Of a stretch of DNA of 64,000 nucleotides, positions 8,691-22,526 are shown one piece after another. Numbering within the stretch: the stretch's first letter is position 1; every line of letters begins with the position of its first letter. Both the position numbers and the translations under genes were made by a program. Under the pieces are notes generated by a model. It worked only from the letters and a program-made list of their open reading frames with translations. It ran no database searches and was not told where the DNA came from. Origin of the DNA: Desulfovibrio sp. (GTDB taxonomy: Bacteria; Desulfobacterota; Desulfovibrionia; Desulfovibrionales; Desulfovibrionaceae). The stretch covers positions 194,529-258,528 of the forward strand of contig NZ_WASP01000008.1 of assembly GCF_009712225.1 (NCBI RefSeq), given 5' to 3'.

Positions 8691-9230
8691 ATGAGAAAAG
8701 GATTCTGGGATTATCTGGCGCACTGGCAAAAGATGTTTCCGCGGCGTCGCACGGTGAGCTGGCGAGATGGCTGGCTCCAAAACGGGTATTGCCGCGACTG
8801 TCGCTATTGCTGCGGCCCGCAGGATTCCAACGAGCCCTTTCCCATGGGGCTCTTGCCCGATCAGCTGCGCCCTGGCCTTGCCAACGACTTTTTTCTGCTG
8901 ACCAAGGATACGGCCTTTATGGATGGCAGGGGCTGCCGCTCATGCACAAGCCAGGGTTGCCGCCTGCCGCGCCCCGACAGGCCGGTAGCCTGCGGGCTGT
9001 TCCCCTTTGTGCTCAATGCGGGCGAGCTGTACCTTTACCAGATATGCCCCGCCAGCATGTTTACACCCCTGGCCCACATGGCGGAACTGGGGCGCGAGGC
9101 TGCGGCGTGGCTGGCAAAGTTCAGCCAGCGAGAACAGGAGCACATTGCCCTCAATCTGCCTGCGGACGTGCTGACAGACCGCTACATCAAGCTGCATATC
9201 ACCGTGTACAATCCCACCGCGTGGAGCTGA
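8691..9230 (+). CDS. YkgJ-type cysteine-cluster protein
   Basis: 179 residues with the CxxCxxCC motif at Cys34, 37, 40 and 41. Further Cys follow in GCRSCTSQGC, VACGLFPF and YQICPAS. This is the signature of the YkgJ-like Cys-cluster family, thought to bind zinc or an Fe-S centre; the biochemical role is not established. The start ATG 8691 is preceded by GGGAGC, 32 bases after mdtI. The frame is open further upstream but overlaps mdtI, so this start is preferred. It converges with the histidine phosphatase gene. Confidence 0.8.
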   Translation: MRKGFWDYLAHWQKMFPRRRTVSWRDGWLQNGYCRDCRYCCGPQDSNEPFPMGLLPDQLRPGLANDFFLLTKDTAFMDGRGCRSCTSQGCRLPRPDRPVACGLFPFVLNAGELYLYQICPASMFTPLAHMAELGREAAAWLAKFSQREQEHIALNLPADVLTDRYIKLHITVYNPTAWS

Positions 9231-9266
9231 GCGCAAAAAAACAGGGAATACAACTGGCGACTGCCG

Positions 9267-9854
9267 CTACCATTCAGGCACAAAGGCCCGGCAACCATAG
9301 TATTGTGGTATCTGCAGCACGTGCCTGAGCGGCAGGGCAAGGTAATGGGCCAGCAGCGTGCCAATGATGCCTGCGTGCGAAACCACAAGCAGGGTGGCGC
9401 AAGGGTATGCCCTGCGCCAGCGCGCCAGCGCCGCCAGAGCCCTGCGCTGCGCCTGCATAAAACTTTCCCCCTCCGGGGGGCAATAATGGGCCATGTCCTG
9501 CCCACGGGCGGCGTATGCACCGGGCCATGCGCTTTCAATTTCTGCCTTGGTCATGCCCTGCCAGCGGCCAAGGCATATCTCGCGCAAACCGGGCTCCACA
9601 TGCAGGGTGGGTCTGCCCTGTTTGCTGGTTGCAGGCAGGCTCTCAAGCAGCAGGGTTGCTGTTTCACGGCAGCGGTCAAGGTCAGAGCAGATGACTGCTC
9701 CCACGCCCTGCCCCAGTTCTGGCACAAACTGACGCGCCATGGCGCGTATCTGGGCGCGGCCCGCATCGCTTAAAGGAATATCACGCGCGCCGACCATGCG
9801 GCGCTCGGGGTTGGGCGGCAGGCAGCCGTGCCTTACCAGCCACATGCCGCTCAT
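9267..9854 (-). CDS. Histidine phosphatase family protein
   Basis: 195 residues with the phosphohistidine motif LVRHG at residues 6-10, the second catalytic His in VVSHAGI, and the acid/arginine pattern of the phosphoglycerate-mutase superfamily. The size and sequence are closest to alpha-ribazole phosphatase (CobC)-like members, but no cobalamin genes are nearby. The start overlaps the stop of the upstream nucleotidyltransferase-HD gene in ATGA. It is thus the last gene of the aldehyde-oxidoreductase-linked operon. It may dephosphorylate a small molecule made by that pathway; the substrate is unknown. Confidence 0.85.
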   Translation of the reverse strand: MSGMWLVRHGCLPPNPERRMVGARDIPLSDAGRAQIRAMARQFVPELGQGVGAVICSDLDRCRETATLLLESLPATSKQGRPTLHVEPGLREICLGRWQGMTKAEIESAWPGAYAARGQDMAHYCPPEGESFMQAQRRALAALARWRRAYPCATLLVVSHAGIIGTLLAHYLALPLRHVLQIPQYYGCRAFVPEW

Positions 9855-11083
9855 GCGGCATTAACCTGCGCTGCGCCGCAGTTTCGTTTCAACGCCCGCT
9901 CAGCCACAAGGGCGGGATCCCTGCCAATTTCACGCGCAAGGCGTTCTTCCATTTTTTTGGCGCGGGCCAGACGACCCTGAATGGCCTCACAGGCCGCAGC
10001 ATCCTGCGCGTACGCATCAAGCTTGTTGCCAAAACGGCGTTCGATGGGCACAAAACTGCCACCGTAACAATATTTGTCGGCCAGATAGATCAGCTCGCGC
10101 TCGGTGATAGGTTCATCGCCCGGCAAGGAAAGATCACGGTGGTCCTGCACCAGCCGCGCCATGCCCGGCAGATCAAGTTGACGCAGCAATTCGCCCACGG
10201 CCTCTTCATGGCGGGGCTGCCCCTTGCAGAGGTCGTGCAGCAGACCGCCAGCCAGCGCCCAGCGCGGATCCACACCAGCATCATACCCGGCAATTTCGCG
10301 GGCGTGCGCCAGGGCTTCGGCCAGACAACAGGCCACAGCACCCACAGCGCGGGCATGACGCAGGCCTTTTTCCGGCACGTTGTACAGATGCAGCAACGAT
10401 TCGGCTTCTATTGGCGAGAGCATTTGCCGCTCAAGGGCGAGGAACCGCAGGCGGGCATAATCGTCGGGGGTGTCCATGTCTTCCAGAATCATGGCATCGG
10501 GCACTGGCACATGACGCAGGGACGCGCCTTCAAGCGCGCCGCGCAGGCCGTTTTGTCCGGTGTGAGCCAGAATGCGCGGGGCGAGATGCATGGGAACAAG
10601 CGGGGGATGCCCCTCCTGCCCGTCAAAGGCGGGGATCAGCACCGGCAACGGTGCCGCCTTGCCGCTCACGGCCTGTTCCGCCGCGCGACCAGCCTCCTCC
10701 TGCTCAGCCGCCTCGCACAGGGCCCGCAGGGTCAGGGGGCGCACCAGCGGAATATCCACCGGCTGTACAAAGAAATATCCGTCAAAACCGCTCTGCGTCA
10801 GGGCCGCCACGCCAGTTCGCACAGACGAAAACATGCCCTGCTGGGGATCAGGATTGCGAACCGCCTTCAGCCCCAGCGCCACAGCCTCGCCTTCCACAAC
10901 GTCGGCGTGATAACCGCTGACCACCACCACGCGCTGCACACCCGCAGACCGGTACTGTTTGACCAACCCCCGCAGGGCCGGGCAGTGCCCCCCATCGGGC
11001 AGCAAGGGCAGTGAAAGCAGCGCCTTGGCCGCACCCATGCGTGAAGCCATGCCAGCGGCAAGAACGATAACGGCAGTTTCCAT
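9851..11083 (-). CDS. MocA-like nucleotidyltransferase fused to an HD domain
   Basis: 410 residues. The N-terminal ~200 residues are a MobA/MocA-like nucleotidyltransferase: LAAGMASRMGAAK at residues 8-20 is the nucleotide-binding loop and QPVDIPLV the metal-binding Asp. After a linker comes an HD phosphohydrolase domain, with the HD pair at residues 283-284 (LLHDLCKG) and flanking His residues. MocA makes molybdopterin cytosine dinucleotide, the cofactor form known in Desulfovibrio aldehyde oxidoreductases, so the N-terminal half fits the mop operon. The role of the HD half is unknown. ATG 11083 has a strong AAGGAAG; the frame is open 14 codons further upstream. Confidence 0.85.
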   Translation of the reverse strand: METAVIVLAAGMASRMGAAKALLSLPLLPDGGHCPALRGLVKQYRSAGVQRVVVVSGYHADVVEGEAVALGLKAVRNPDPQQGMFSSVRTGVAALTQSGFDGYFFVQPVDIPLVRPLTLRALCEAAEQEEAGRAAEQAVSGKAAPLPVLIPAFDGQEGHPPLVPMHLAPRILAHTGQNGLRGALEGASLRHVPVPDAMILEDMDTPDDYARLRFLALERQMLSPIEAESLLHLYNVPEKGLRHARAVGAVACCLAEALAHAREIAGYDAGVDPRWALAGGLLHDLCKGQPRHEEAVGELLRQLDLPGMARLVQDHRDLSLPGDEPITERELIYLADKYCYGGSFVPIERRFGNKLDAYAQDAAACEAIQGRLARAKKMEERLAREIGRDPALVAERALKRNCGAAQVNAA

Positions 11084-11151
11084 GTGCTTCCTTCCTTGCG
11101 TCGCAGCGCGGATCAGCTCATCCACTGCGGCAGATACAGGATGCCAAAAAA

Positions 11152-12267
11152 TTAGTGCAGGTCCGATAAATCAGGGATTTGCCATCCCCTGCCCTTGCTG
11201 GGGCAAACAATGCGCGGGCTTGCTCCCGCAGGGCGCTCGATGCGCCCAAGCACAGGCCCAAGCCTGAGCAGGGGGCTGCCACAGTCGCAGGGGCCGGGCA
11301 ACAGGCGGGCCACATCACCAGTGCGGTAGCGCACCAGCGGCATGGCCTCGCGCTGCAGGGTGGTTATGACCACCTCGCCAGCCTCTCCTACGGGCAAAAC
11401 CTTATGCCCCGATATATCTACTATTTCTATCAGAACGTCCAGCTCCCGCACATGAAAACCATTGTGCGCGGCACATTCTACCGCGCCGCCGTAGGCTGTT
11501 TCCGTAAGGCCGTAGTGATCCAGAACCTCGCACTGCCAGACCTGGCGCAGGCTTTGCCCAAGCGCGACATCCAGAGGCTCGGCGCTGGAAAGCACGCCCG
11601 CAATTTTTTTTGGCCCGGCAGAGAAAAACCACCCGAGCAGACAGGCCAGCTGTGCCGGGGCAGCCACAAGGCAATGCGCTTCGGCCTGCTCTATCCATTG
11701 GACAAGGGATTCACCTGGCTGACTGGACATATGCACCTGCGCTGGCGGAGCCACCACCTCCACTCCGGCGCTGACAAGGGCCTGCCGCAGCAGATCGGCC
11801 ACACCGTCTGGCCGTTCCGCGCCCGGCAGCAGCACGGCCAGACGCTGCCCTGCCCGCACGAGCTGGCTCATACCCACAGCAAAAAAATCGCGCGTACGCG
11901 CAAGATCTGCATCCGTAAAGGCGAGCCGCTTGGGCTGACCTGTGGTGCCTGAAGTGTGCAGGGTTACCATGCGCTGCACGTCACCCTGCGAAACACACAA
12001 AAAATCACCCCAGTTGCGCAGGTCTTCGGCCGTAGTAAAGGGCAGGCGCGTCAGGTCTTCCAGCCTCGTAAACTCGCTGACACGGCCCTGCAAACGCGTT
12101 GCGTAAAAGGCCCCGCGCATGGCCTGCTCTACGGTGCTACGCAAAAGGCGCAACTGCATTTGCGCCAGTTTTTCGGGCAGTTCACAGCTGGCGGTTGCGC
12201 CGCACTGCACTGCCAGCCAGACATCCAGCGGGCACGAACCAAAACACGCGTCAATTTTTGCCCTCAT
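11152..12267 (-). CDS. AMP-forming CoA-ligase-like enzyme, short C-terminus
   Basis: 371 residues resembling phenylacetate-CoA ligase and coenzyme F390 synthetase. It has the adenylate-forming P-loop HTSGTTGQPKR near residues 103-113, the DHYGLTET motif and YRTGDVARL. Family members usually run to 430 residues with a C-terminal lid carrying a catalytic Lys. This one stops about 35 residues after the RTGD motif and seems to lack that lid. The frame after the TAA stays open for about 12 codons. Its start overlaps the stop of the radical-SAM gene by four bases. From memory it corresponds to the family named after D. vulgaris DVU_1553. The substrate is unknown. Confidence 0.8.
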   Translation of the reverse strand: MRAKIDACFGSCPLDVWLAVQCGATASCELPEKLAQMQLRLLRSTVEQAMRGAFYATRLQGRVSEFTRLEDLTRLPFTTAEDLRNWGDFLCVSQGDVQRMVTLHTSGTTGQPKRLAFTDADLARTRDFFAVGMSQLVRAGQRLAVLLPGAERPDGVADLLRQALVSAGVEVVAPPAQVHMSSQPGESLVQWIEQAEAHCLVAAPAQLACLLGWFFSAGPKKIAGVLSSAEPLDVALGQSLRQVWQCEVLDHYGLTETAYGGAVECAAHNGFHVRELDVLIEIVDISGHKVLPVGEAGEVVITTLQREAMPLVRYRTGDVARLLPGPCDCGSPLLRLGPVLGRIERPAGASPRIVCPSKGRGWQIPDLSDLH

Positions 12268-13697
12268 GGCTGTTCACCATACAGGCGCGTGCCGTTGCTG
12301 GCCGTAAGATTGTGCAGGCAAAATGGAATCATGCGGCCATCAGGCCGCACCACATGGATGCAGCAGCCCCGAACACGGTCAAGGTCGAGGCTCAGGGCAT
12401 CCTGAAAGGCCATGGACGAGAGCGTAAAGCGTTGTTCTGCCCCGGCGTGGGCCAGAAAGCGGCTAAAGCCGTCTGCGCCGGAATTTGGGGAAACACGGCT
12501 TTCGCCTGCGGTATCGTCGCCCTTCCAGTGCATGGCCACAAACTGCTTTGCCTTGCGCGCGCCCTCTTCGGCGGGTGGCGGCACGCTTGCCCCCACTGTC
12601 TGCGGCGCAGGCGAGCAACACGACTGCCCGGCATCGGACAACCATTGCAGCCCCGGTTTGCCGTTATGCTGCACACGACGGTAAACGGCACTGAAAGAAC
12701 ACAGTTCGTTTTCACACCCCGGCGGGTGCAGATGGCTTGGGCTGACCAGTTCCGGAGCCTGTCGCGCCAGCGCGGCCATCACATCGGGCAAGGTAAGACG
12801 CGGTGCTTCTTCCAGTTGCCAGGGGTAGCGGCCAAAAAATGCAGCGGGCTGAATGTGCAGCCCCCGCACCGCAGGCCCCATATCCAGCGCCAGTCGCAAC
12901 AGGTCGCCCAGCTCACCATCGTTGACGCCGCGCACCACGGTTGCCACAAGCACCACGCCAAGCCCGGCATCGGCGCAATTGCTCACCGCGCGGCGCTTGA
13001 ATTCGAGGCATTCCCTGCTGCGCAGGGCCATAAAACTGCTTTCACGTACGCCATCCCATTGCAGATAGACCGAATCAAGCCCGGCATCGCGCAGGCTGCG
13101 GGCATAGCCCTGCTGGCGCGCGAGCCTCAGCCCGTTGGTATTGACCTGCACCAGACCAAAGCCGCGTTGACGCGCCAAGCCTATGATTTGGGGCAGGTCG
13201 TCGCGCACGGTGGGTTCGCCGCCAGAAATCTGCACGTTGCACGGGCCGGACGCCCCCTTGAGAACATCCATCTGCATGGCGATGACATCCAGCGAGATAT
13301 CGTCGGCCTCGCTGCGTAGGGGATTCGACACTGACCCCGCCTGTGCGTAGCACACGGGGCAGGCCATGTCGCAGCGCTTGGTGACCTCAAACAGGCCCGT
13401 GCAGGTATGCTGGGCGTGCGCGGGGCAAAGCCCGCAGTCATAGGGACAGCCATCGCGGATGGGAGTGCGGGGATTGACCGGATAGGAGGGATTTTTGGGG
13501 CGCGACCAGCTCGCAAAGGGCGGCGTGGCTGCCGCACCCTCGCCGGATTCGCGCCACACAGGCACACTGAACGTGCCGTGGTCAGGGCAGGTTTTACGCA
13601 GTACAACGGTATGGGCATCTGTGGCCGAATACACATAGCTGGCCTCTACCCGCCGCAAACACTCGGGGCAGAGGCTTTGGGTGCGGCGCAGGATCAT
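12264..13697 (-). CDS. Radical SAM enzyme with two CX3CX2C motifs (Tes/MJ0619-like)
   Basis: 477 residues. Cys109, 113 and 116 (CDMACPVC) form the radical-SAM [4Fe-4S] motif. Just before it, Cys84, 88 and 91 (CPYDCGLC) form a second CX3CX2C, and Cys10/Cys13 (CPEC) and Cys37 give an N-terminal Cys group. This layout, with GLCPxHxxxTC before the SAM motif, is what I recall for the MJ0619 / tetraether-lipid-synthase type. The conserved SGGEPT and NTNG motifs follow. The start at 13697 overlaps the upstream gene's stop in ATGA; a longer open frame upstream lies inside that gene and is rejected. The product and substrate are unknown. Confidence 0.88.
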   Translation of the reverse strand: MILRRTQSLCPECLRRVEASYVYSATDAHTVVLRKTCPDHGTFSVPVWRESGEGAAATPPFASWSRPKNPSYPVNPRTPIRDGCPYDCGLCPAHAQHTCTGLFEVTKRCDMACPVCYAQAGSVSNPLRSEADDISLDVIAMQMDVLKGASGPCNVQISGGEPTVRDDLPQIIGLARQRGFGLVQVNTNGLRLARQQGYARSLRDAGLDSVYLQWDGVRESSFMALRSRECLEFKRRAVSNCADAGLGVVLVATVVRGVNDGELGDLLRLALDMGPAVRGLHIQPAAFFGRYPWQLEEAPRLTLPDVMAALARQAPELVSPSHLHPPGCENELCSFSAVYRRVQHNGKPGLQWLSDAGQSCCSPAPQTVGASVPPPAEEGARKAKQFVAMHWKGDDTAGESRVSPNSGADGFSRFLAHAGAEQRFTLSSMAFQDALSLDLDRVRGCCIHVVRPDGRMIPFCLHNLTASNGTRLYGEQP

Positions 13698-14158
13698 GCT
13701 TTTTCCGTGAGATCCAGCTCGTAACTCTGAACCAGTTCCATGATTTTTCCCCAGCATTCGGCCAGCAGGTCGCCACAGGCCACGGGATTGGGCTGCTCGC
13801 CCGCTACGCCAGAAGTAGCGCCCAAGCCAGCCGCTATCTGCCCGCAACGCTGCCCGCCGTAAGCCTCTGTGCGGTCATAAAACCAGCTGGCATAATCGTT
13901 GAGCAGGGGGGTAAGCATGGGGTGCGCGGTTTCGTCCTCTGCGCCCTTGCCAGCGGCCAGCGCCAAAGCACAAGCACCGCCGGTCAGCAGGCCGCAGGGG
14001 CCGTCAGACTGGCCGATGCCGTGGCACAGTCCCTGCGCGGCGCGTACCACGCCGGGATTCTGCCTGTCCTGCGCCTGAAGCATGAGCAGAAGCAGCAACT
14101 GGCTGCAACAATAGCCCTGATGCACCAGGGGCAGCAGTTCCATCATCATGGGATTCAT
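13694..14158 (-). CDS. C_GCAxxG_C_C family protein
   Basis: 154 residues with the spaced Cys pattern of the C_GCAxxG_C_C family: Cys17/18 (GYCCSQ), Cys55 and Cys63 around GPCGLLTGGAC, then Cys105, 128 and 135. The family is thought to bind a metal or Fe-S centre, and members near radical-SAM genes are common; no activity is established. The start at 14158 gives the ATGA overlap with the methyltransferase gene, as at the other junctions in this operon. A GTG or ATG eight codons further upstream would be the alternative. Confidence 0.82.
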   Translation of the reverse strand: MNPMMMELLPLVHQGYCCSQLLLLLMLQAQDRQNPGVVRAAQGLCHGIGQSDGPCGLLTGGACALALAAGKGAEDETAHPMLTPLLNDYASWFYDRTEAYGGQRCGQIAAGLGATSGVAGEQPNPVACGDLLAECWGKIMELVQSYELDLTEKA

Positions 14159-14880
14159 AGCGTCTCCTTTCGGGCGATCCACAGGCCGTAGCCAAAGGCG
14201 CGCAAGGCGTTGCCGGGGGTGTGGCCTTCGCAGGCGCAGCCCCTGCCCTGCCCGGTGGATGCATCGCCGTACCAGACCATGCGCGCGGCCAGTTCCACCA
14301 GCGCGCGGCTGTTGTCCTCAAAATGCACGATTGTAAAGCCCGCAGCTTCCATGAGCCCGCGCCAGCCAGCTTCGCCCCGCGCGCCCGCAAGGCACGAAGA
14401 ACCAACTCCCCCAAGGCTGGAATCCGCCGAGGTCTGCGCGTACCCCTGCCGCAGCATAAGATCGCTGACCACCAGCACACCGCCGGACCGCAAGGCCGCA
14501 AAGGCCGCCTTTAAGGTCACAAGGGGGTCTGCCAGCAAAGAGAGCACGCATTCGCACAGCACACAGTCTGCGCAGGCCCCTGCCAGAGGTGGACGCGTAA
14601 GGTCCGCGCGCACAAGGGCGCAAGTAATGCCCAAATCTTCGCCAGCCAGCCGCTCTGCCCCGGCATATTTGTCCAGCCCCACAGCGCTGTAGCCCCGCTC
14701 TGCCAGCAGGCGCAACGTGGCCCCTGCCCCGCTGCCCATATCAAGCACCAGCCCGCCGGGCCGCAGCCAGCCGCTGGCCGCGCACCTGTCGAGCGCGCGG
14801 CAGGTCAGCACCACGCCACCGGGCCGCCACGCATCACCTGCGGCGCGCCGAAAATCGGGCCGTTCCCAGAGTGCGCTCAC
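14155..14880 (-). CDS. SAM-dependent methyltransferase
   Basis: 241 residues with the class I methyltransferase motif I GLVLDMGSGAGATL at about residues 44-57 and an acidic loop and motif IV region around VRADL and a Cys-rich CADCVLCECVLSLL. The start is GTG at 14880, overlapping the stop of the small Cys-pair gene as GTGA. From memory this is the DVU_1556-type family, always seen beside the radical-SAM and C_GCAxxG_C_C genes; selenocysteine variants exist in that group, but here the positions are ordinary Cys. The methyl acceptor is unknown. Confidence 0.82.
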   Translation of the reverse strand: MSALWERPDFRRAAGDAWRPGGVVLTCRALDRCAASGWLRPGGLVLDMGSGAGATLRLLAERGYSAVGLDKYAGAERLAGEDLGITCALVRADLTRPPLAGACADCVLCECVLSLLADPLVTLKAAFAALRSGGVLVVSDLMLRQGYAQTSADSSLGGVGSSCLAGARGEAGWRGLMEAAGFTIVHFEDNSRALVELAARMVWYGDASTGQGRGCACEGHTPGNALRAFGYGLWIARKETL

Positions 14881-15092
14881 TTGTCTTCCAGCAGGGCTTC
14901 CACCTCAAGCATCTTGCCCTCTGCCAGAGATTTGGGAACCTGAGTGAGCCCGCACTTGGGGCAGCGCGGCAAAAATACGTCAAAAGCGCTGTTGAGATAA
15001 AATACGGGAACCTTCACCTGCTCAAGGGCAACACGACAACGTCCGCATACCCATTGGCCGCCATCCGGCCCGTAATTTGGCCCCATGCTCAT
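14877..15092 (-). CDS. Small two-CxxC redox or zinc-ribbon protein
   Basis: 71 residues with two Cys pairs, CGRC near residue 17 and CPKC near 47, separated by a short hydrophobic stretch. This is a rubredoxin-like or zinc-ribbon arrangement suited to one metal ion. It is too short for other domains. The start at 15092 gives the ATGA overlap with the flavoprotein gene; longer upstream readings lie within that gene. It may be a small electron carrier or a scaffold for the adjacent enzymes. The function is inferred from context only. Confidence 0.8.
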   Translation of the reverse strand: MSMGPNYGPDGGQWVCGRCRVALEQVKVPVFYLNSAFDVFLPRCPKCGLTQVPKSLAEGKMLEVEALLEDK

Positions 15093-17644
15093 GACTGTCC
15101 ACCTCCCTGCACGCCAGATTGTCCGCTCCGGGAGCCCGGATTCTGCCCAAGATTCTGGCCAACCCTCTGACCATCGGTACAACACTGGTGGCTGTTGATG
15201 ACATCCACGGCCTCCTGCCCGCCAGAACCCGGCACCACCATACGGTGACACCATGCATCGTGCAGGATAAAGCCCTCGCCCTGCGGCTGGTATTCCACCC
15301 AGAAAGTTACCTTTCTGGGTCGCCACGAACCAAGCCGGTGGCCGTTTTCCAGATTTTCAAACCAGTGGCCGCTGGCCTCGGCCCCCGCCACGGCTCCTTC
15401 CACGTCTGAAAGCAGAATATGCCGTTCTTCCATGCGCGCCAAGGCGTTGGGGCTTACCAGCACCCTACGCTTGCCCGCGTGGTCTGGTGCGGTAAAGGTA
15501 GCGCTGTTCAGTCCATACATGCTGCCGTATTTTTCCAGCAGAATGCGGCGCAGGGCCGCGCGGTTGGCCCGCCGGGCCGAAAGACCGGGGCCGGGAACTG
15601 CGCCCGACTGTCCCTTTGCAAATTCTGCATTGCCAGACTGCGGCAAAAGCAAGTCGAGCATATGCCAGCATTCCTTGCCGCTGGCCGCCATACGGTCGCG
15701 GCACATGATGCACGAGGCAAGACCGGGGTGCTCAAGCTGGGCCGCCCGGTGGTCGCTCATGGCTTTTGCCGTCTGCGGCTGGGCGCACCACACAAGGCCA
15801 CCGTAACCGCAGCAGGCCGTGGAGGCTCCGCTGAGGCGGGGTTCCTCAACCGTGGCCCCGCACTTTCCCGCAAGACTGCGCACAGCAGCAAGCCATGCCT
15901 TGTCGTGCCGCGCAGTGCAGGGATCCTGAATGGAAAATATTTGGGGCAGATCTTTTGAAATGGGCGTGGCAGCAAGCCAATCCTGCGCCAAACCGTCCAG
16001 CACTTCCCACACAGATACGGTCTGCGCTTCGGGCAGGCCTTCGCGCAGGGCCGCAAGACATGAGGAACAGGCCGCCACAATGCGTGGCTTGCCCAGCCCC
16101 TGCCAGGCCTGACGGATTGTTTCCATGTGCTCGCTGAACAGGGCCGACCGACCGGCCCAGCGGGCAGGAATACCGCAGCACGAGAGCATTACGCCCACGC
16201 CCTGCCCATCTGCCGTGCCAAGCTTTGCGCGCAGCAGGTCGTACAGATCGACGGTTTGTTCTACCCGTGCCGCAGCCAGCTGACAGCCGGGAAAAAACAG
16301 ATGAGATACCGCGCCGTGGGCCCCGGTTGCACCTTGGGCAGCCGGGGGCGGCAGCACCAGCGCGCATTCGGCCCCGCTGGCGCTCTCCATATCTTCCAGC
16401 GCAAATTCGTGCGCAGTGGGCGGCATAAAGCCGCGCTCCACCATATCTTCGCGTGCGGAAAGGCAGAGCTCGGACATGGAAAAATTCTCCGGGCAAAGCT
16501 CCTCGCACTGACCGCACAGGGCGCAGCCGTTAATGACGGCATTGGCCGTGTGCAGGCCTTTGACGATGGAGGCATTATTGTGGATCTGGCGCGCGTAAAG
16601 TCGAGGATACCCCTTGTATTTTTGCAGGTACACGCATTCGCGCACGCAGATCATGCACTGGCATTGCAGGCAGCGCTCTGCCTCGCGAACGGCCTCCTCT
16701 GCCGAATACAGAGGCTCCGCAAGGGCATTGCCAGCTTGCCGTGCCGCCTCCACGCGCGGTACGGGGTTTATACCCGTAACATCGGTGTGCAGCGGTCCCT
16801 GCGATTTGTCGCGCGCCGCGGTGAGTGAAACACCGCTGGTCACGCGCTCCATGGTCTGGGCCGCGTGCCGCCCCTGCCCTGCCTGACGCGAGGCAGAGGC
16901 GAAAACATGCCCCGTGGGGGTGCTGACAGGCCAGCCAGCGCAACAGATATTGTCACGCCACAGCAGGGTCTCGGCATCAATCTGGGCCTCGGCCGGTATC
17001 AGGTCGGGCGCTGCCGCCAACACAGCGTCGGCGTCCACCAGCACTGCATTGTATTCCACCGCCAGCTTTTCCAGCAGGGGCGCATCCAACGTTGCCTGTT
17101 CAAAAACTACCTTTTGGCGGGTGAGGCTTTCAAAATCTTCTGCCGCAAAATCCTTGGTGATGCCTGCGGCATCAGGTGCGGCAGCCAGCGCCGCGTGGCG
17201 GGCCAGCAAAAATTCCGCAGGTGCGCCCGCGTGAAATACCGTTACGGGATAGGCCTTGCGCGAGAGATCCCACGCCGCCGCAAGCCCCGCCAATCCTGCA
17301 CCCATAATCGCCATACGAAATTTTTTGGGCGGCAGGGGCAGAGGACGGCCCTGCGGCCCCACAGCCAGCATACATGCAAGCTCAATCCCGTGCATGGCCA
17401 CGCTGCCGCCAAGATCCTGCCGCAGGCAGGCATTTTCGCAGGGGTGGTCGCAGATACGGGCGATTATGCCGGGCAAGGGCAGATGCCGCTCAAGCACCTT
17501 GCGGGCCTCGCCCTGCTTGCCCTCGGCCATGCGGGCCATAAAGGTTCGCACATCCAGATCAAAGGGGCAGGCCACCCGGCAACGGGGCGGGCTTTCCTGC
17601 GTGCAGTGCGACTCTATTTCGTGCAGACGTTGTTGGTCCATCAT
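15089..17644 (-). CDS. Multidomain Fe-S / NAD(P)-binding / CCG-domain oxidoreductase
   Basis: 851 residues in at least four parts. First is an N-terminal GltD-type Fe-S domain (CPFDLDVRTF, then CDHPCENACLR). Next is a Rossmann fold with GAGLAG near residues 115-120. A ferredoxin-like dicluster region follows (CLQCQCMICVREC, then CALCGQCEELCP). Last are two CCG domains of the heterodisulfide-reductase/GlpC type (FFPGCQL with SCCGIP, and DPCTARHD with CCGYGG) and a ~100-residue tail. It probably moves electrons between NAD(P)H, Fe-S centres and a partner, perhaps the aldehyde oxidoreductase. Two ATGs (17644, 17641) are possible. It lies 254 bases downstream of mop, beyond two large hairpins. 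Confidence 0.85.
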   Translation of the reverse strand: MMDQQRLHEIESHCTQESPPRCRVACPFDLDVRTFMARMAEGKQGEARKVLERHLPLPGIIARICDHPCENACLRQDLGGSVAMHGIELACMLAVGPQGRPLPLPPKKFRMAIMGAGLAGLAAAWDLSRKAYPVTVFHAGAPAEFLLARHAALAAAPDAAGITKDFAAEDFESLTRQKVVFEQATLDAPLLEKLAVEYNAVLVDADAVLAAAPDLIPAEAQIDAETLLWRDNICCAGWPVSTPTGHVFASASRQAGQGRHAAQTMERVTSGVSLTAARDKSQGPLHTDVTGINPVPRVEAARQAGNALAEPLYSAEEAVREAERCLQCQCMICVRECVYLQKYKGYPRLYARQIHNNASIVKGLHTANAVINGCALCGQCEELCPENFSMSELCLSAREDMVERGFMPPTAHEFALEDMESASGAECALVLPPPAAQGATGAHGAVSHLFFPGCQLAAARVEQTVDLYDLLRAKLGTADGQGVGVMLSCCGIPARWAGRSALFSEHMETIRQAWQGLGKPRIVAACSSCLAALREGLPEAQTVSVWEVLDGLAQDWLAATPISKDLPQIFSIQDPCTARHDKAWLAAVRSLAGKCGATVEEPRLSGASTACCGYGGLVWCAQPQTAKAMSDHRAAQLEHPGLASCIMCRDRMAASGKECWHMLDLLLPQSGNAEFAKGQSGAVPGPGLSARRANRAALRRILLEKYGSMYGLNSATFTAPDHAGKRRVLVSPNALARMEERHILLSDVEGAVAGAEASGHWFENLENGHRLGSWRPRKVTFWVEYQPQGEGFILHDAWCHRMVVPGSGGQEAVDVINSHQCCTDGQRVGQNLGQNPGSRSGQSGVQGGGQS

Positions 17645-17719
17645 GGCGATGTTTCTCGCTGGATTGGTGCAGGTGCGGTATTGCGTCAAAGAGTGGCGGG
17701 GCCGCTGCCCAAACGGCAA

Positions 17720-17753
17720 GCGGGGCTTTCAGAGAGCTCCCTGAAAACCCCGC
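17720..17753 (-). terminator. Inverted repeat between mop and the accessory genes
   Basis: Arms 17720-17732 and 17741-17753 pair 12 of 13 positions around an 8-nt loop. No T-run follows on the minus strand, so this may be a partial terminator, an mRNA-stabilising hairpin or a processing site. It lies 76 bases before the flavoprotein start. Confidence 0.45.
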
Positions 17754-17836
17754 AAACCGTGCCACCGTGGCAGCCCTTGTGGCTGAACCTCGGATAAATA
17801 CCAAATATAACTCAGGGATCTTTATGCACTTTTGTG

Positions 17837-17868
17837 GGGGAGAACCCTTTTTGCAAAGGATTCTCCCC
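17837..17868 (-). terminator. Hairpin at the 3' end of mop
   Basis: GGGGAGAA (17837-17844) pairs with TTCTCCCC (17861-17868), and the inside can extend through CCTTT and AAAGG. It sits 31 bases after the mop stop. There is no clear T-run on the minus strand, so termination is likely incomplete. A 3'-protecting hairpin for the mop message fits equally well. Confidence 0.5.
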
Positions 17869-17898
17869 AATTATTCAGATGTTTGGCCTTAGCCTACG

Positions 17899-20622
17899 CT
17901 ACTTGGGCATGGCCTCCAACACCTTTTCGGGACGGGCGGGCAGATGACGCACGCGCGCGCCGCAGGCATTGTAGATGGCGTTGATGATGGCGGGGTGCGG
18001 CGCGGTGAGGGGCATCTCGCCCACGCCGGAAGCACCGAAGGGACCAGCCTTGCGGGGGGTCTGCACATAGACGATTTCCATGTTGTCGGGAATCATCTTG
18101 ATGGTAGGCACGCCCGCGCCAGCAAGGGTGCTGTGCTTCTTGAGGTCTTCGTAGTCTTCGGTAAGGGCAAGACCCACGCCCTGCGCCATACCGCCGTAGA
18201 TCTGGCCGTCGACCACCAGCTTGTTGCACAGGGTGCCGATGTCGGCCACGCACACGAGCTTTTCAACGGTGGTCTTGCCGGTGGCCACTTCCACGGCCAC
18301 TTCGGCCAGGAACAGGCCGTACATGTAGCAGGCAAAAGGTTCGCCCTGGCCCTTGAGGTCGCAATCCTTGGCCGGGGCAGACCACTTGCCGTCGTAGTGC
18401 ACGGGGCGGCCTTCGGCCTTCATTTCTTCATAGGTAAAGAAACCGCCGCTGGGCTTGCGCATGCCTTCAATCAGCATTTCGCAGGCCACACGGGTGGCGT
18501 TACCCGTAACCACCTGTGAACGCGAGCCGCCCGCAGGACCGGAATTGGGGGTCTTGCTGGTGTCGTTCATGACCAGATGGATGCTTTCGGGCTTGATGCC
18601 CAGGGGACGCAGGGCTTCGTGCGCGGTGCCCAGAGTACCGGAATCAGCGCCCTGACCGTGGTCTTCCCACGAGTTGCCGATGGTGACGCTGCCGTCGGGG
18701 TTCAGTTCCGCCCAGGCCTCGGAGGTATCCGGCCCATCAAGGCCAGCGCCGTACACGCCAAGGGCAATGCCCACGCCGCGTTTAACTTCGGCGGTGGAGC
18801 GGGCTTTGACGGCCTTTTTGGATTCTTCGTAATAGGGGCGCATTTTTTCAAACATTTCGGGCAGGCTCATGACTTCAGGAGTCTGGCCCGAGGGGTTGGT
18901 ATCGCCCTCGCGGTAGCAGTTCAGCGCGCGGATTTCAAAGGGATCCATGCCGAGCTTTTCGGCGAGCTCGTCCATGAGCACTTCAGAGGGGAATTCCGTT
19001 TCCGGCGCGCCGTAACCACGGAAAGCGGCGCCCCAGCAGTGGTTGGTGGCAACGGTACGGCCCTTGCCGCGAATATTGGCAATGCCGTAGCCAGCGCCAA
19101 TGTACTGTGCGCCGCGCAGGGTGAGCAGATCGCCGAATTCGGAATAGGGGCCGTGGTCAACGCTCCAGTCCGTTTCCATGGCAAGAATCTTGCCCTGCTT
19201 GTTGGCGGCGTAGCGAACGGTTGTCCAGAAGGGCGAGCGCTTGCCGGTGTAGCTCTGCTGCTGTTCATAGTTGTAGCGCAGGTGGCAGGGACGGCCGGTG
19301 GCCATGACGGCCACGCCCACAAGGGCTTCCATGGTGGGGCTGAACTTGTAGCCAAAGGTGCCGCCGGTGGTGTTCTGCACCACGACCAGATCCTTGGGGA
19401 ATTCCAGGCCAAGGCCGGGGGCGATCATCAACGCGTGCAGGTGGATGGCCACAGACTTGGAGTGGATGACCACCTGACCCTTGTCATTGATGTAGCCATA
19501 GCCCACATCGGGTTCGATGGGCAGGTGGGGCTGGCGCTGGGTGTAGTAGCTGCCCTCGGCAACCACATTGGCGGAATCATTGAAGAAGGGAGCGGTATCC
19601 GCGCCTTTTTCTTCAAGCTGTTCATAGTAAATATTGGGGGTACCGGGGTGGATTTCGATGGCGTCCGGAGCCATGGCTTCGGGGGCGCTCATGTATTCGG
19701 GCAGCAGCTCGAGGTCAAACTTGACCTTTTCGGCGGCGGCGCGGGCGTTGCATTCAGAATCGGCGCACACTATGGCAAGGGCGTCGCCGTACTGGAATAT
19801 CTTGGTGTCGTTAAGGATGGGGCGTTCCCAGCCGTCACCCTTGTTGGTGGGGAAGGTGATGAGACCGGTGATGCGGTTTCTGCCCTTCACGTCCTTATGG
19901 GTGAGCACCTTGTAGACACCGGGCATTTTTTCGGCTTCAGAGGTGTCAATGCCCTTGATAAGGGCGTGCGATACCTTGGCTTGGGCCAGGGCCAGATGCA
20001 GGGTGTTGGCGGGCAGGCGATGCGCCGCGTCCGCGCCGAATTCGGCGGTGCCGGTCACCTTGGCAACGGCAGTGGGACGAGGAATGGTGGAACCCCAGAT
20101 GCGGCCATCGGCAGGCATCTTGAAGGTCACGTCGTCCAGAGATTTTTCGCCGCGCATAAGGGCGGCGGCGTCCATAACGGCATCCACCAGAGGCTTGTAG
20201 CCCGTGCAGCGGCATACGTTGTGGTTTTTCTGGAACCAGTCGCGCACGTCCTCGCGACTGGGATTGGGATTGGAATCAAGCAGGGCCTTGGCCGAAACGA
20301 TGAAACCGGGGGTACAGAAACCGCACTGGGCCGCACCGTGGAATATCCAGGAGTGCTGCAGGGGGTGCAGATTGGCGGGCGTACCTACGCCCTCAAGGGT
20401 TGTAACGGCGGCGTTTTCCGCCACGCGATTCATTTTGACAACGCAGGCGCGTACAACTTTACCGTCAAGAATAACAGAGCAGGCGCCACACTGGCCTTTG
20501 CCGCAACCAACCTTGACACTGGTGAGCTGCAACTGATCACGCAACACGTCCACCAGCATATCTTCAGGTTTAACCAGCAAACGCCGGGGGATGCCGTTAA
20601 TCACAAGGGTTTTTGTTTCCAT
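17899..20622 (-). CDS. mop: Molybdenum aldehyde oxidoreductase (xanthine oxidase family)
   Basis: Oxidises aldehydes to carboxylic acids at a molybdopterin cytosine dinucleotide centre. The 907 residues equal the length of the D. gigas enzyme. The plant-type [2Fe-2S] Cys are at 40, 45, 48 and 60 (VGCGKGQCGACS). The second cluster ligands are in AQCGFCTPG and NVCRCTGY. Molybdenum-domain motifs include GGTFGYKF, AFRGYGAPE and, near the C-terminus, GASGVGEMPL with the catalytic Glu. It has no FAD domain, as in D. gigas, so electrons must leave to an external acceptor. GGAG precedes ATG 20622. The upstream molybdopterin-binding gene and downstream accessory genes look dedicated to it. Confidence 0.97.
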   Translation of the reverse strand: METKTLVINGIPRRLLVKPEDMLVDVLRDQLQLTSVKVGCGKGQCGACSVILDGKVVRACVVKMNRVAENAAVTTLEGVGTPANLHPLQHSWIFHGAAQCGFCTPGFIVSAKALLDSNPNPSREDVRDWFQKNHNVCRCTGYKPLVDAVMDAAALMRGEKSLDDVTFKMPADGRIWGSTIPRPTAVAKVTGTAEFGADAAHRLPANTLHLALAQAKVSHALIKGIDTSEAEKMPGVYKVLTHKDVKGRNRITGLITFPTNKGDGWERPILNDTKIFQYGDALAIVCADSECNARAAAEKVKFDLELLPEYMSAPEAMAPDAIEIHPGTPNIYYEQLEEKGADTAPFFNDSANVVAEGSYYTQRQPHLPIEPDVGYGYINDKGQVVIHSKSVAIHLHALMIAPGLGLEFPKDLVVVQNTTGGTFGYKFSPTMEALVGVAVMATGRPCHLRYNYEQQQSYTGKRSPFWTTVRYAANKQGKILAMETDWSVDHGPYSEFGDLLTLRGAQYIGAGYGIANIRGKGRTVATNHCWGAAFRGYGAPETEFPSEVLMDELAEKLGMDPFEIRALNCYREGDTNPSGQTPEVMSLPEMFEKMRPYYEESKKAVKARSTAEVKRGVGIALGVYGAGLDGPDTSEAWAELNPDGSVTIGNSWEDHGQGADSGTLGTAHEALRPLGIKPESIHLVMNDTSKTPNSGPAGGSRSQVVTGNATRVACEMLIEGMRKPSGGFFTYEEMKAEGRPVHYDGKWSAPAKDCDLKGQGEPFACYMYGLFLAEVAVEVATGKTTVEKLVCVADIGTLCNKLVVDGQIYGGMAQGVGLALTEDYEDLKKHSTLAGAGVPTIKMIPDNMEIVYVQTPRKAGPFGASGVGEMPLTAPHPAIINAIYNACGARVRHLPARPEKVLEAMPK

Positions 20623-20700
20623 GCGCGACTCCTTTAAATGATGAACAAAGTTATATGCCTACGCGGAAAATCCGCGCCCGGTATCTGGCTTGTCGCCTCC

Positions 20701-21741
20701 CTACTTGCCAAAGGGACAAATGGGGTAACGGCATACTTCGCACTGCGAGCAAAAACCGCCGTGCCCCAATGCCGCCACATCGGCCGCACTTACCTCTATG
20801 CCCGCCAAAAGGCGCGGCACGATCAGGTCAAAGATGCTGGCCTTGTGGTACATGACGCAGCCGGGCAGCCCCAGTACGGGAACCCGCCCAGCAGCGCCCT
20901 CGGCATATGCCAGAAGAAACATGGCCCCAGGGTAGACCGGCGCGCCGTAACTTGCCACTTCTGCACCGGAAGCGCGGATGGCTGTGGGCGTGCGGTCGTC
21001 GGGATCTACAGACATGCCGCCCGTAACCACAATAAGATCAGCTCCTTGCTCCAGAAAATCCCTGATTGCCCCGGCTGTCATGGGCACTTCGTCGCTGGTG
21101 AGGGTTTGCCCCACCACCGTGCTGCCCAGAGCCATAAATTTTTTGCGCAGTACAGGGCCAAAAGCATCCTGTATACGACCATAAAAAACCTCGCTGCCGG
21201 TAGTGACCACACCAACCTTGGCGCGGCGTAGCGGCAACACTTCTATGACCGGCCCGCTCACAAACGCCTCAAGCTGACGCAGTTTTTCGTCTTCAATCAT
21301 CAGCGGCACAACACGAGCCCCTGCAACAGAACGGCCCTTGGTGACATGTTGCATGGTGTGGATGGTTGCGACAGATATTTCGCCAAGGCTGTTGATGCGG
21401 TTGAGTACCGGCACATCAATGCGCAACAGCCCATCACAGGCGGCCTGCAGATCGATGCGGCCTTCCTTGGGGTCAGTGTGCACAAGGTTACCACCAGCAA
21501 CGGCGGCAATTATGCGCGCGGCGGCGTCATTTTCGTGCACCATGCCGGGCAGGGATTCAAAAACGTAAAGATGCTCTTTTCCGACCTGTAAAAGCACCTC
21601 AACATCTTCCTGCCGCACCACATGGCCTTTGCGAAAAACTGGTCCTTTGCTTTCACCTGGCACAATTCTGGTGATGTCGTGGCACAAAATACTACCCACG
21701 GCGTCATGAACACGGATGGTTTTCATTGCCAATTTGGACAT
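20701..21741 (-). CDS. MoeA-like molybdopterin-binding protein with C-terminal Cys cluster
   Basis: 346 residues. The central MoCF_biosynth-type fold is marked by VVTTGSEVFYGR and VVTGGMSVDPDDRTP, the molybdopterin-binding motifs of MoeA/MogA proteins. The last residues hold CSQCEVCRYPIC, a metal-binding Cys group not found in ordinary MoeA. A role in molybdenum insertion or cofactor handling for the adjacent mop gene is the best inference. ATG 21741 follows GGGAGAGG and is preferred over the second ATG at 21726. It is first in the operon, with 78 bases before mop. Confidence 0.88.
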   Translation of the reverse strand: MSKLAMKTIRVHDAVGSILCHDITRIVPGESKGPVFRKGHVVRQEDVEVLLQVGKEHLYVFESLPGMVHENDAAARIIAAVAGGNLVHTDPKEGRIDLQAACDGLLRIDVPVLNRINSLGEISVATIHTMQHVTKGRSVAGARVVPLMIEDEKLRQLEAFVSGPVIEVLPLRRAKVGVVTTGSEVFYGRIQDAFGPVLRKKFMALGSTVVGQTLTSDEVPMTAGAIRDFLEQGADLIVVTGGMSVDPDDRTPTAIRASGAEVASYGAPVYPGAMFLLAYAEGAAGRVPVLGLPGCVMYHKASIFDLIVPRLLAGIEVSAADVAALGHGGFCSQCEVCRYPICPFGK

Positions 21742-22021
21742 GACCTCTCCCGAAGCTGACTTCTAGATTGTGCATAAAATAGCACCCTCGCAACAAAATG
21801 CAAAATAAAATTCGTTATTTATTAATTGTGCTTTTGCTAACCGGCTGACTTGTCATGGTATCAACAGATAAATTCCTCTTTTTTGCAAAAAGCGTGATTA
21901 TTGTGCCCGCAAGTGCCCGCGCCAGCAGACAGGCGGCATTGACAGCGGCCCTATTCTTTGCGACAGGGAAAGAAAACGCCGCCGCGATTTTTATGATCGC
22001 GGCAGTATTATGAGGAACGCC
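21742..22021. other. Divergent control region, mop operon and lipoprotein gene
   Basis: 280 AT-rich bases between the minus-strand mop operon and a plus-strand lipoprotein gene, with no gene of its own. It contains the candidate mop-operon promoter (21776-21803). A perfect inverted repeat, GCCGCGAT 21981-21988 with ATCGCGGC 21996-22003, lies just ahead of the lipoprotein ribosome-binding site. Confidence 0.6.
21776..21803 (-). promoter_or_regulatory. Candidate promoter of the mop operon
   Basis: On the minus strand, TTGCAT (21803-21798) and TATTTT (21781-21776) are 16 bases apart. The predicted start would leave a leader of about 30 bases before ATG 21741. Reasonable sigma-70 boxes, but unproven. 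Confidence 0.4.
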
Positions 22022-22399
22022 ATGCAAACGCTTTCAGCATACTTGCCACTGGGCCAAGCCCGGCTTGCACTTTCCGGACTGGCGCTTTTTGCCACCCTGC
22101 TGCTCGGCGGGTGCGGCTTTGGCGGATCGCCTGCCCAGCCAGAAACGCCCCCCGGCCCGGTTACGGGATTCATGATTGCTTCCAACGTGGGCGAAACCGC
22201 TACTGTTGACGACCCAGATTTTGGCAAGGGCGTGCGCGTGAGCCTCGATGAACTTTTTACCTCGGCCAAGGGCGAAGACTGCAAACGCGGCACGGTGCTT
22301 GCGGGTCAGCGTGAGGCAGAGGTTATTGTCATCTGCCGCGATGCCACGGGCCGCTGGAACATGGCCCCACGCGTGTGGGGACAGGGCCTCTCGCAATAA
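22022..22399 (+). CDS. Small predicted lipoprotein of unknown function
   Basis: 125 residues. The N-terminus has a signal peptide (LALSGLALFATLLLGGC) with the lipobox LGGC, so lipid attachment is expected. The mature part is short, has two Cys (DCKRG and VICRD) that could form a disulfide, and ends in a Trp-rich patch. I do not recognise the family. ATG 22022 follows GAGGA at 22012-22016; an ATG at 22010 in frame has no such site. It precedes a polysaccharide-export gene by 272 bases, and a link to it is possible but not shown. Confidence 0.75.
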   Translation: MQTLSAYLPLGQARLALSGLALFATLLLGGCGFGGSPAQPETPPGPVTGFMIASNVGETATVDDPDFGKGVRVSLDELFTSAKGEDCKRGTVLAGQREAEVIVICRDATGRWNMAPRVWGQGLSQ

Positions 22400-22492
22400 A
22401 ACACCCCTGAGCAGAGCCTTGAGGCATGCGGGCAAAAAAACGCCCATACCAGCATTGCCTCTGGCTAATCTGGGCAAATATGATTATTTATT

Positions 22493-22526
22493 GAAGCGCA
22501 CGGCGGCTATCATGCCCGTGCGCTTC
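22493..22526. repeat. Perfect 11-bp inverted repeat before the export gene
   Basis: GAAGCGCACGG (22493-22503) and CCGTGCGCTTC (22516-22526) pair perfectly around a 12-nt loop. The T-run expected of a plus-strand terminator is missing. It could be a leader hairpin or an operator for the export gene; minus-strand termination is possible because an A/T-rich stretch lies left of it. Confidence 0.6.

Follow-up and report, generated by a model that had tools for sequence, protein, structure and literature searches.

The window analysed here is a stretch of 64,000 nucleotides from Desulfovibrio sp. (contig NZ_WASP01000008.1, genome of 3.67 Mb), in which ten genes of the minus strand, running from position 21741 to 9267, form an operon around mop, the gene of a molybdopterin-dependent aldehyde oxidoreductase (Mop). 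In the order of transcription, they encode a MoeA-like protein (MOEA), Mop, and the proteins named here DICL, RED, MT, CGCA, TrsS, LIG, MOCHD and PHOS (Table 1). With starts refined by profiles (that of DICL being the first ATG of an ATGATG pair), six gene pairs, DICL/RED, RED/MT, MT/CGCA, CGCA/TrsS, TrsS/LIG and MOCHD/PHOS, share four-base overlaps of start and stop (ATGA or GTGA), and the gaps outside these overlaps measure 78, 254 and 68 bases. The arrangement lies far beyond chance. An earlier reading of the letters alone (the sequence-only reading) had proposed a ten-gene minus-strand cluster, and indeed all ten genes fall within the span it gave, with the order mop-DICL-RED-MT-CGCA-TrsS-LIG fixed and recurring across unrelated phyla. 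Eight of the ten proteins exceed the cut-offs of NCBIfam models (NF045645, NF045646, NF045663 and NF045665-NF045669), which bears out its assignment of the genes to families named after DVU_1551, 1553, 1555, 1556 and 1557; the match of Mop to NF045668 spans positions 3-905 of 905 and is full length.

Table 1. Genes of the mop operon in the window, in the order of transcription, with profile scores in bits given against the model cut-off
Gene	Product	Position	Strand	Profile evidence
MOEA	MoeA-like molybdopterin-binding protein, 346 aa, first operon gene	20701..21741	-	PF00994 only, 79 bits vs cut-off 26.6
mop	Molybdopterin-dependent aldehyde oxidoreductase, 907 aa	17899..20622	-	NF045668, 1654 vs 1100
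DICL	Flavin/4Fe-4S dicluster/CCG oxidoreductase, 851 aa (refined start)	15089..17644	-	NF045663, 847 vs 530; PF14691, PF13534, PF02754
RED	DVU_1557 family two-CxxC redox protein, 71 aa	14877..15092	-	NF045645, 86 vs 60; PF24292; ATGA overlap
MT	DVU_1556 family methyltransferase, 241 aa	14155..14880	-	NF045667, 186 vs 155
CGCA	DVU_1555 family C_GCAxxG_C_C protein, 154 aa (refined start)	13694..14158	-	NF045669, 159 vs 103; PF09719
TrsS	Tes-like radical S-adenosylmethionine (SAM) enzyme, 477 aa (refined start)	12264..13697	-	NF045646, 557 vs 490; PF04055, PF23545
LIG	DVU_1553 family adenylating ligase, 371 aa, without C-terminal domain	11152..12267	-	NF045666, 398 vs 300
MOCHD	DVU_1551 family NTP transferase resembling MocA, with a fused HD domain, 410 aa (refined start)	9851..11083	-	NF045665, 380 vs 315; PF12804, PF01966
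PHOS	Histidine phosphatase, 195 aa, last operon gene	9267..9854	-	PF00300 only, 150 bits; CobC-like, below that cut-off (127 vs 163)

It is near certain that this cluster is dedicated to Mop in the lineage of the window. Indeed, the check suggested by the sequence-only reading, namely profile searches combined with a map of co-occurrence, showed that the cluster tracks mop tightly. In one draw of 395 Desulfobacterota genomes, with presence taken as reaching the NCBIfam cut-off, TrsS was found in 43 and mop in 34; 32 genomes held both, 2 mop only, 11 TrsS only and 350 neither (Fisher p 2e-35, a value that treats genomes as independent, which they are not). This co-occurrence is near one-to-one. 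One mop-only genome (G330) has TrsS split across two contig ends, one of them on the contig of mop itself, and the other (G241) holds mop as fragments only. Among the TrsS-only genomes, G104 has a mop truncated by a contig end within the same operon (L064), G253 and G358 carry a TrsS of the mop clade described below without mop above cut-off, and the other 8 of 11 fall outside that clade. In the family of the window, matches to Desulfovibrio gigas Mop (E up to 1e-150) occurred in 170 of 247 genomes, and scanning 60 of these 247 for TrsS recovered it in 40/40 with a Mop match and in 2/20 without. The first exception (G926) has a DICL frame beginning at contig base 292, so that mop would fall off the end, and the second (G721) has a tandem TrsS pair adjoining an HGD-D gene.

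The same pattern was found in another phylum, that of a Ruminococcaceae metagenome-assembled genome (MAG; G419, L160), where mop exceeded the cut-off in 19 of 299 genomes. There, TrsS was sought in every one of the 25 genomes with a mop match (E up to 1e-200) and in 20 of the remaining 274; it exceeded the cut-off in 16/19 mop genomes and in 0/20 controls. The remaining three showed 469 bits at a contig end (G494), a partial match of 332 bits (G505) and no TrsS match (G629). Six of the 25 have mop below cut-off. In G498, where a contig end truncates mop, TrsS lies on that contig as well; TrsS is absent both from G495 (a mop fragment of 1056 bits) and from four genomes with distant mop relatives only (G469, G479, G543 and G701; 672-758 bits). 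Note that second, more distant mop copies lie off the contig of the TrsS cluster in two Desulfovibrio genomes of the Desulfobacterota draw, namely in G353, of the same genus as the window (G353:C1:78546-81257, 1242 bits), and in G235 (G235:C11:56171-58696, 1056 bits).

TrsS itself falls into two groups. One genome-contig scan yielded 80 loci, the best of 371 relatives; we assign 67 of them to TrsS and the final 13, which are archaeal, to a Tes-like group. The tree of 117 rows, built by a quick method with SH-aLRT support only, leaves out TrsS matches covering <75% of the profile (including L076, L077, L078, L137, L157 and L159) and retains near-copies in the counts (TrsS is identical in L072/L131, L099/L162 and L101/L147). 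The mop clade, which holds the window, has 78 rows (support 99) from Desulfobacterota, Bacillota, Chloroflexi, Campylobacterota, Alphaproteobacteria, Spirochaetes and Synergistetes, with mop in the locus for 60, elsewhere in the genome for 15 and absent for 3, so that 75/78 come from mop genomes. The three without mop (L062, L063 and L116) are all MAG contigs, and 3 of the 15 ‘elsewhere’ rows rest on a mop below cut-off (fragments for L102 and L121; 1099.7 vs 1100 for L125). The other group of TrsS proper, 22 rows from 20 loci, belongs to genomes without mop above cut-off, Methanomassiliicoccales-type archaea included, although some hold distant mop relatives (e.g., 799 bits in G306). Tandem TrsS gene pairs occur in the mop-less loci L143, L153 and L225 (G721:C34), the last two near HGD-D-type genes. 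With the outgroup root, the mop clade is nested inside mop-less TrsS, and the Trs core may thus predate its association with mop. This rooting is not secure, since several of those forks have a support of 91 and L180 (archaeal, counted as Tes) falls with long branches on the TrsS side.

The gene content of the loci divides along the same line. Comparing mop-clade loci (n=77) with mop-less ones (n=20), we found DICL in 67 and 17, LIG in 67 and 18, RED in 66 and 12, and MT in 65 and 12, as against CGCA in 65 and 2, MOCHD in 40 and 0, PHOS in 29 and 1, MOEA in 22 and 0, and MOP in 59 and 0; some loci are truncated at contig ends, and a profile may miss the mop-less proteins, which have diverged further. 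These counts show that the cofactor genes go with mop and that a core of five genes, DICL/RED/MT/TrsS/LIG, can do without it. Thus, the tie to mop expected by the sequence-only reading holds within the mop clade, where 3 of 78 rows stand without it, and only in part for the core, with its 20 mop-less loci. Where a full mop and DICL lie on one strand of a mop-clade locus, DICL starts 0-1000 bases downstream of mop in 53/55 cases, and all seven core genes are present in 43 of the 55 mop-clade loci whose sequence extends no less than 8 kb upstream and 2 kb downstream of TrsS. When 901 neighbour frames from loci L062 to L168 were clustered, XdhC appeared in 25 loci (mop present in 21) and a cysteine desulfurase of the EF2568 type in 9 (mop present in 6); the members that were scored stay below the cut-offs (317 vs 350 and 306 vs 377). 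The mop-less loci adjoin genes for a corrinoid activator, a corrinoid protein, an MtaA/CmuA-like methyltransferase, a TRAP transporter, a formate-dehydrogenase-like enzyme, and HGD-D proteins with an activase; DMSO-reductase-family genes of the formate-dehydrogenase-like kind also occur in one mop locus (L094). In addition, a single frame at L138:9399-9851 joins the C-terminal domain of DICL to RED, which suggests that the two proteins work together. For that domain, the best Foldseek match of a structure model (pLDDT 80) was a RelE-like fold with an E-value of 0.15, which we did not use. Furthermore, a protein of ~104 residues lies close to TrsS in L073, L109, L135, L165 and L166, all with the cysteine desulfurase, and the one member scanned had no Pfam or NCBIfam match.

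The cluster is also present in the genome that encodes the crystallised Mop. Genome G735 carries a gene whose product is 100% identical to D. gigas Mop over 903 residues, and its locus (L220, L221), read with the profiles of this analysis, runs MOEA-MOP-DICL-RED-MT-CGCA-TRSS-LIG-XDHC-PHOS, with TrsS above the NCBIfam cut-off (632 bits) and no MOCHD in the 34 kb read. The crystallised protein is reported to have come from D. gigas cells. The window Mop is 89% identical to 1dgj and ~68% identical to D. gigas Mop, and 1dgj is in turn 93% identical to the Mop of Desulfovibrio sp. MES5, whose genome also has the cluster. According to the available parts of the published history of the enzyme, the D. 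gigas structures (2.25 and 1.28 Å) contain a pterin with the cytosine dinucleotide, two sulfurs of the dithiolene and three oxygen ligands, along with two Fe-S centres, and activity does not need a sulfido ligand; the portion seen of a 2013 PLoS ONE paper agrees on this site and ties activity to the dithiolene redox state. The sequence-only reading had suggested that the accessory genes build an extra ligand, or a small organic cofactor or electron carrier, for the enzyme. Since the genome encoding the crystallised Mop has the cluster, yet the structure as described in those sources is plain, an extra molybdenum ligand is unlikely; a small cofactor or carrier remains a candidate.

Among solved proteins, the nearest relative of TrsS is Tes (7tol; 432 bits by profile, 253 by sequence), although TrsS stays below the Tes model NF045702 (304 vs 450). 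In pairwise alignment, TrsS and 7tol have 12 cysteines in common, two in CPxCL, one in TCPxHG, three in CPYDCGLC, three in CxxxCPxC and three in a C-terminal CC...C, and TrsS has one further cysteine shortly after CGLCPxH. Note that the Pfam name HMPTM of its N-terminal ribbon goes back to an earlier assignment of the archaeal protein as a pterin methylase, and we did not take it as evidence for pterin chemistry. The gene that the sequence-only reading called CoA-ligase-like does belong to a ligase family, but corresponds only to the N-terminal part of the usual enzyme, and its score against PaaK (TIGR02155) is 104.7 vs 646. Indeed, LIG of the window extends only 28 residues past the N-domain, against ~100 in most relatives, and it lacks the C-terminal domain of full-length ANL enzymes, with its lysine. 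Such short forms (16-44 residues past the N-domain) were found in 23 loci including the window, with 17 distinct tails, and long forms (at least 70 residues), to which the D. gigas-type LIG (L221) belongs, in 105 loci with 88 distinct tails; some loci represent the same genome twice, and the counts cover matches away from contig ends, L157 excepted. The short forms make up one 11-row tree clade with the window (support 93). The catalytic lysine of adenylating enzymes sits in the C-terminal part that the short form has lost, so that the short tail may bring a substitute. K-G occurs in 17/17 distinct short tails, with P no more than two residues before it in 16/17, and K followed by K or R occurs within the last 30 residues of 83/88 long tails.

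Regarding the cofactor genes, the XdhC family, which the sequence-only reading did not note, lies within the cluster in many relatives and outside it in the window genome. There, the homologue (G000:C7:98613-99644; L184:8584-9762) scores 318.5 vs 350 against NF045664, a model named ‘XdhC family aldehyde oxidoreductase maturation factor’ and numbered next in the same NCBIfam set, and adjoins a gene that reads like topoisomerase I. XdhC proteins are usually required for the sulfido ligand, according to the part of PMC2997495 available, and an XdhC-type gene in the operon of an enzyme reported without that ligand is a point of tension. The absence of XdhC was considered as the cause of the missing ligand and rejected: a homologue stands elsewhere in the window genome, and the cluster of the D. 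gigas-type locus includes one. MOCHD passes NF045665 and remains below the MocA model TIGR03310 (104.5 vs 186.45), and the CobC-like score of PHOS (127 vs 163) was obtained with the alpha-ribazole phosphatase model TIGR03162. The MoeA-like protein reached no MoeA equivalog cut-off; beyond its single domain, it bears a cysteine-rich C-terminal tail, CSQCEVCRYPICPFGK, with four cysteines.

Upstream of the operon, the minus strand carries at 21979-22005 a 10-pair hairpin that has a T-rich tail and no Rfam match; an Rfam scan of 8900-22500 gave nothing at gathering score. The promoter scan gave 2 sites against a shuffled mean of 3.1, and terminator-like sites numbered 31 against 15.0 in shuffled sequence, a difference that we do not interpret. 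The NCBIfam names ‘(seleno)protein’ for TrsS, which makes selenocysteine optional in that family, and ‘near_Sec’ for the dicluster protein raised a link to selenium, which was rejected, the ten window genes being without internal stop (in TrsS, no internal TGA); in L152 and L207, the in-frame TGA sits at the extreme end of the gene.

Altogether, we read the cluster, with a probability of roughly 45%, as a Mop-dedicated operon of two parts with different histories, in which every chemical step is a proposal from gene families and context. In the first part, the MoeA-like protein, MOCHD, an XdhC-family factor (unlinked here) and perhaps PHOS would probably make molybdopterin cytosine dinucleotide (MCD) and insert it into Mop, because of their gene families and their near restriction to mop loci. 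The second part is the Trs core. Within it, DICL, RED and, in the mop lineage, CGCA rather likely form an electron path to or from Mop, which would take electrons from aldehyde oxidation or keep the dithiolene of Mop reduced. LIG would adenylate a carboxylate and TrsS would use radical chemistry of the Tes type to form a C-C or C-S bond, so that, as we tentatively propose, TrsS, LIG and MT together would yield a small acyl- or aryl-derived molecule serving as a diffusible partner or carrier and not as a molybdenum ligand. Several observations weigh against this scheme. A review, in the portion available, names flavodoxin as the putative partner of Mop; MOCHD and PHOS lie below the MocA and CobC cut-offs; the window LIG is without the usual C-terminal domain, so that it may not carry out ordinary ligase chemistry; TrsS stands without the other core genes in four mop genomes (L123, L125, L152 and L160); and a catabolic role would suit the mop-less core, with its neighbouring transporter and corrinoid genes, equally well.

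In such a catabolic module, LIG would activate an organic acid, TrsS and MT would rearrange it and Mop would oxidise the resulting aldehyde, with corrinoid or HGD-D enzymes taking the last step where mop is missing. The mop-less surroundings, with TRAP transporters, a corrinoid protein and its activator, HGD-D with its activase and a formate-dehydrogenase-like enzyme, agree with this, as does the score of LIG, which is PaaK-like though far below that cut-off; moreover, one D. vulgaris proteome table places DVU_1559 (Aor) with ethanol metabolism, in keeping with a substrate role, and is silent, in the part seen, on its neighbours. However, among neighbour families in at least 4 loci, the TRAP genes belong almost only to mop-less loci, the mop loci instead carrying XdhC and cysteine desulfurase together with an ABC transporter that, from its permease, reads as the molybdate type, and no substrate is in sight. 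We regard a catabolic module as rather unlikely.

That TrsS, LIG and MT instead build a group bound to Mop or to its molybdenum site appears improbable. The mop clade of TrsS is tightly tied to mop, and radical SAM enzymes often mature metalloenzymes, both of which favour it. On the other hand, the core also exists without mop, and for the D. gigas Mop, whose genome has the cluster, the sources available report no more than two Fe-S centres, oxo/hydroxo ligands and the cytosine-dinucleotide pterin; a labile group may have been lost when the protein was purified. Finally, RED, a 71-residue protein encoded in one operon alongside a methyltransferase and a radical SAM enzyme, could be a precursor peptide from which TrsS and MT make a cofactor, as for pyrroloquinoline quinone or mycofactocin. 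We consider this very improbable, because the two-CxxC family is conserved along its length (PF24292 covers 59/71 residues), the archaeal L138 frame fuses RED with the C-terminal domain of DICL, and by score TrsS is much closer to Tes than to peptide maturases.

Returning to the two-part operon, a broader and more speculative extension, which we rate as rather unlikely, is that the Trs core makes a diffusible organic cofactor or redox carrier through Tes-type radical bond formation on an adenylated acid, used by Mop in the mop lineage and by corrinoid, 2-hydroxyacyl-CoA-dehydratase-like or formate-dehydrogenase-like enzymes elsewhere. If true, a cofactor shared among anaerobes has been overlooked in forty years of work on D. 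gigas Mop. A Tes-like core tied to Mop across phyla would mean either an unseen partner molecule or the true substrate pathway adjoining, and the relatives without mop point to use of this chemistry by other anaerobic enzymes as well. The crystallised Mop, encoded in a genome with the cluster, has already been purified and solved and thus offers an enzyme on which to address the question.

The searched literature, i.e., openly licensed papers in PubMed Central, yielded no paper on the function of the cluster, in line with the sequence-only reading, which held the chemistry of the DVU-named families to be unassigned. The table of a 2026 review, seen in part, has an entry ‘Radical SAM selenoprotein TrsS’ with a reference to Haft and Tolstoy 2025 (mSystems 10:e0141724), who may already describe this gene neighbourhood. 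Compared with known systems, the ten-gene cluster resembles the NCBIfam set of Trs and DVU_1551-1557 models in that 8/10 of its proteins pass them, but these models give family names and not chemistry; the two TrsS groups, the co-occurrence counts, the link to D. gigas and the short ligase are added here. The Mop proteins of D. gigas and D. desulfuricans (1vlb and 1dgj) are of the same family (68% and 89% identical to the window Mop), and the genome of the former has the same cluster, whereas the published work, in the portions available, treats the enzyme alone and not its neighbour genes, the word ‘operon’ being absent from the text of PMC10223205 as seen. As in MCD maturation, MocA-like, MoeA-like and XdhC-like genes accompany mop, but MOCHD differs from MocA in its extra HD domain and its score (104 vs 186). 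Some mop-Trs loci share with those of selenium-dependent molybdenum hydroxylases a neighbouring EF2568-type cysteine desulfurase (below cut-off) and XdhC, whereas the window Mop falls below the model of selenium-dependent xanthine dehydrogenase (TIGR03311; 431.5 vs 830.45). Lastly, Tes (7tol) shares with TrsS a kinship at the level of the fold, judged from sequence, and the 12 cysteines, but the window TrsS is bacterial and scores below the Tes cut-off, and the two stand in separate clades of the tree, save for one archaeal row.

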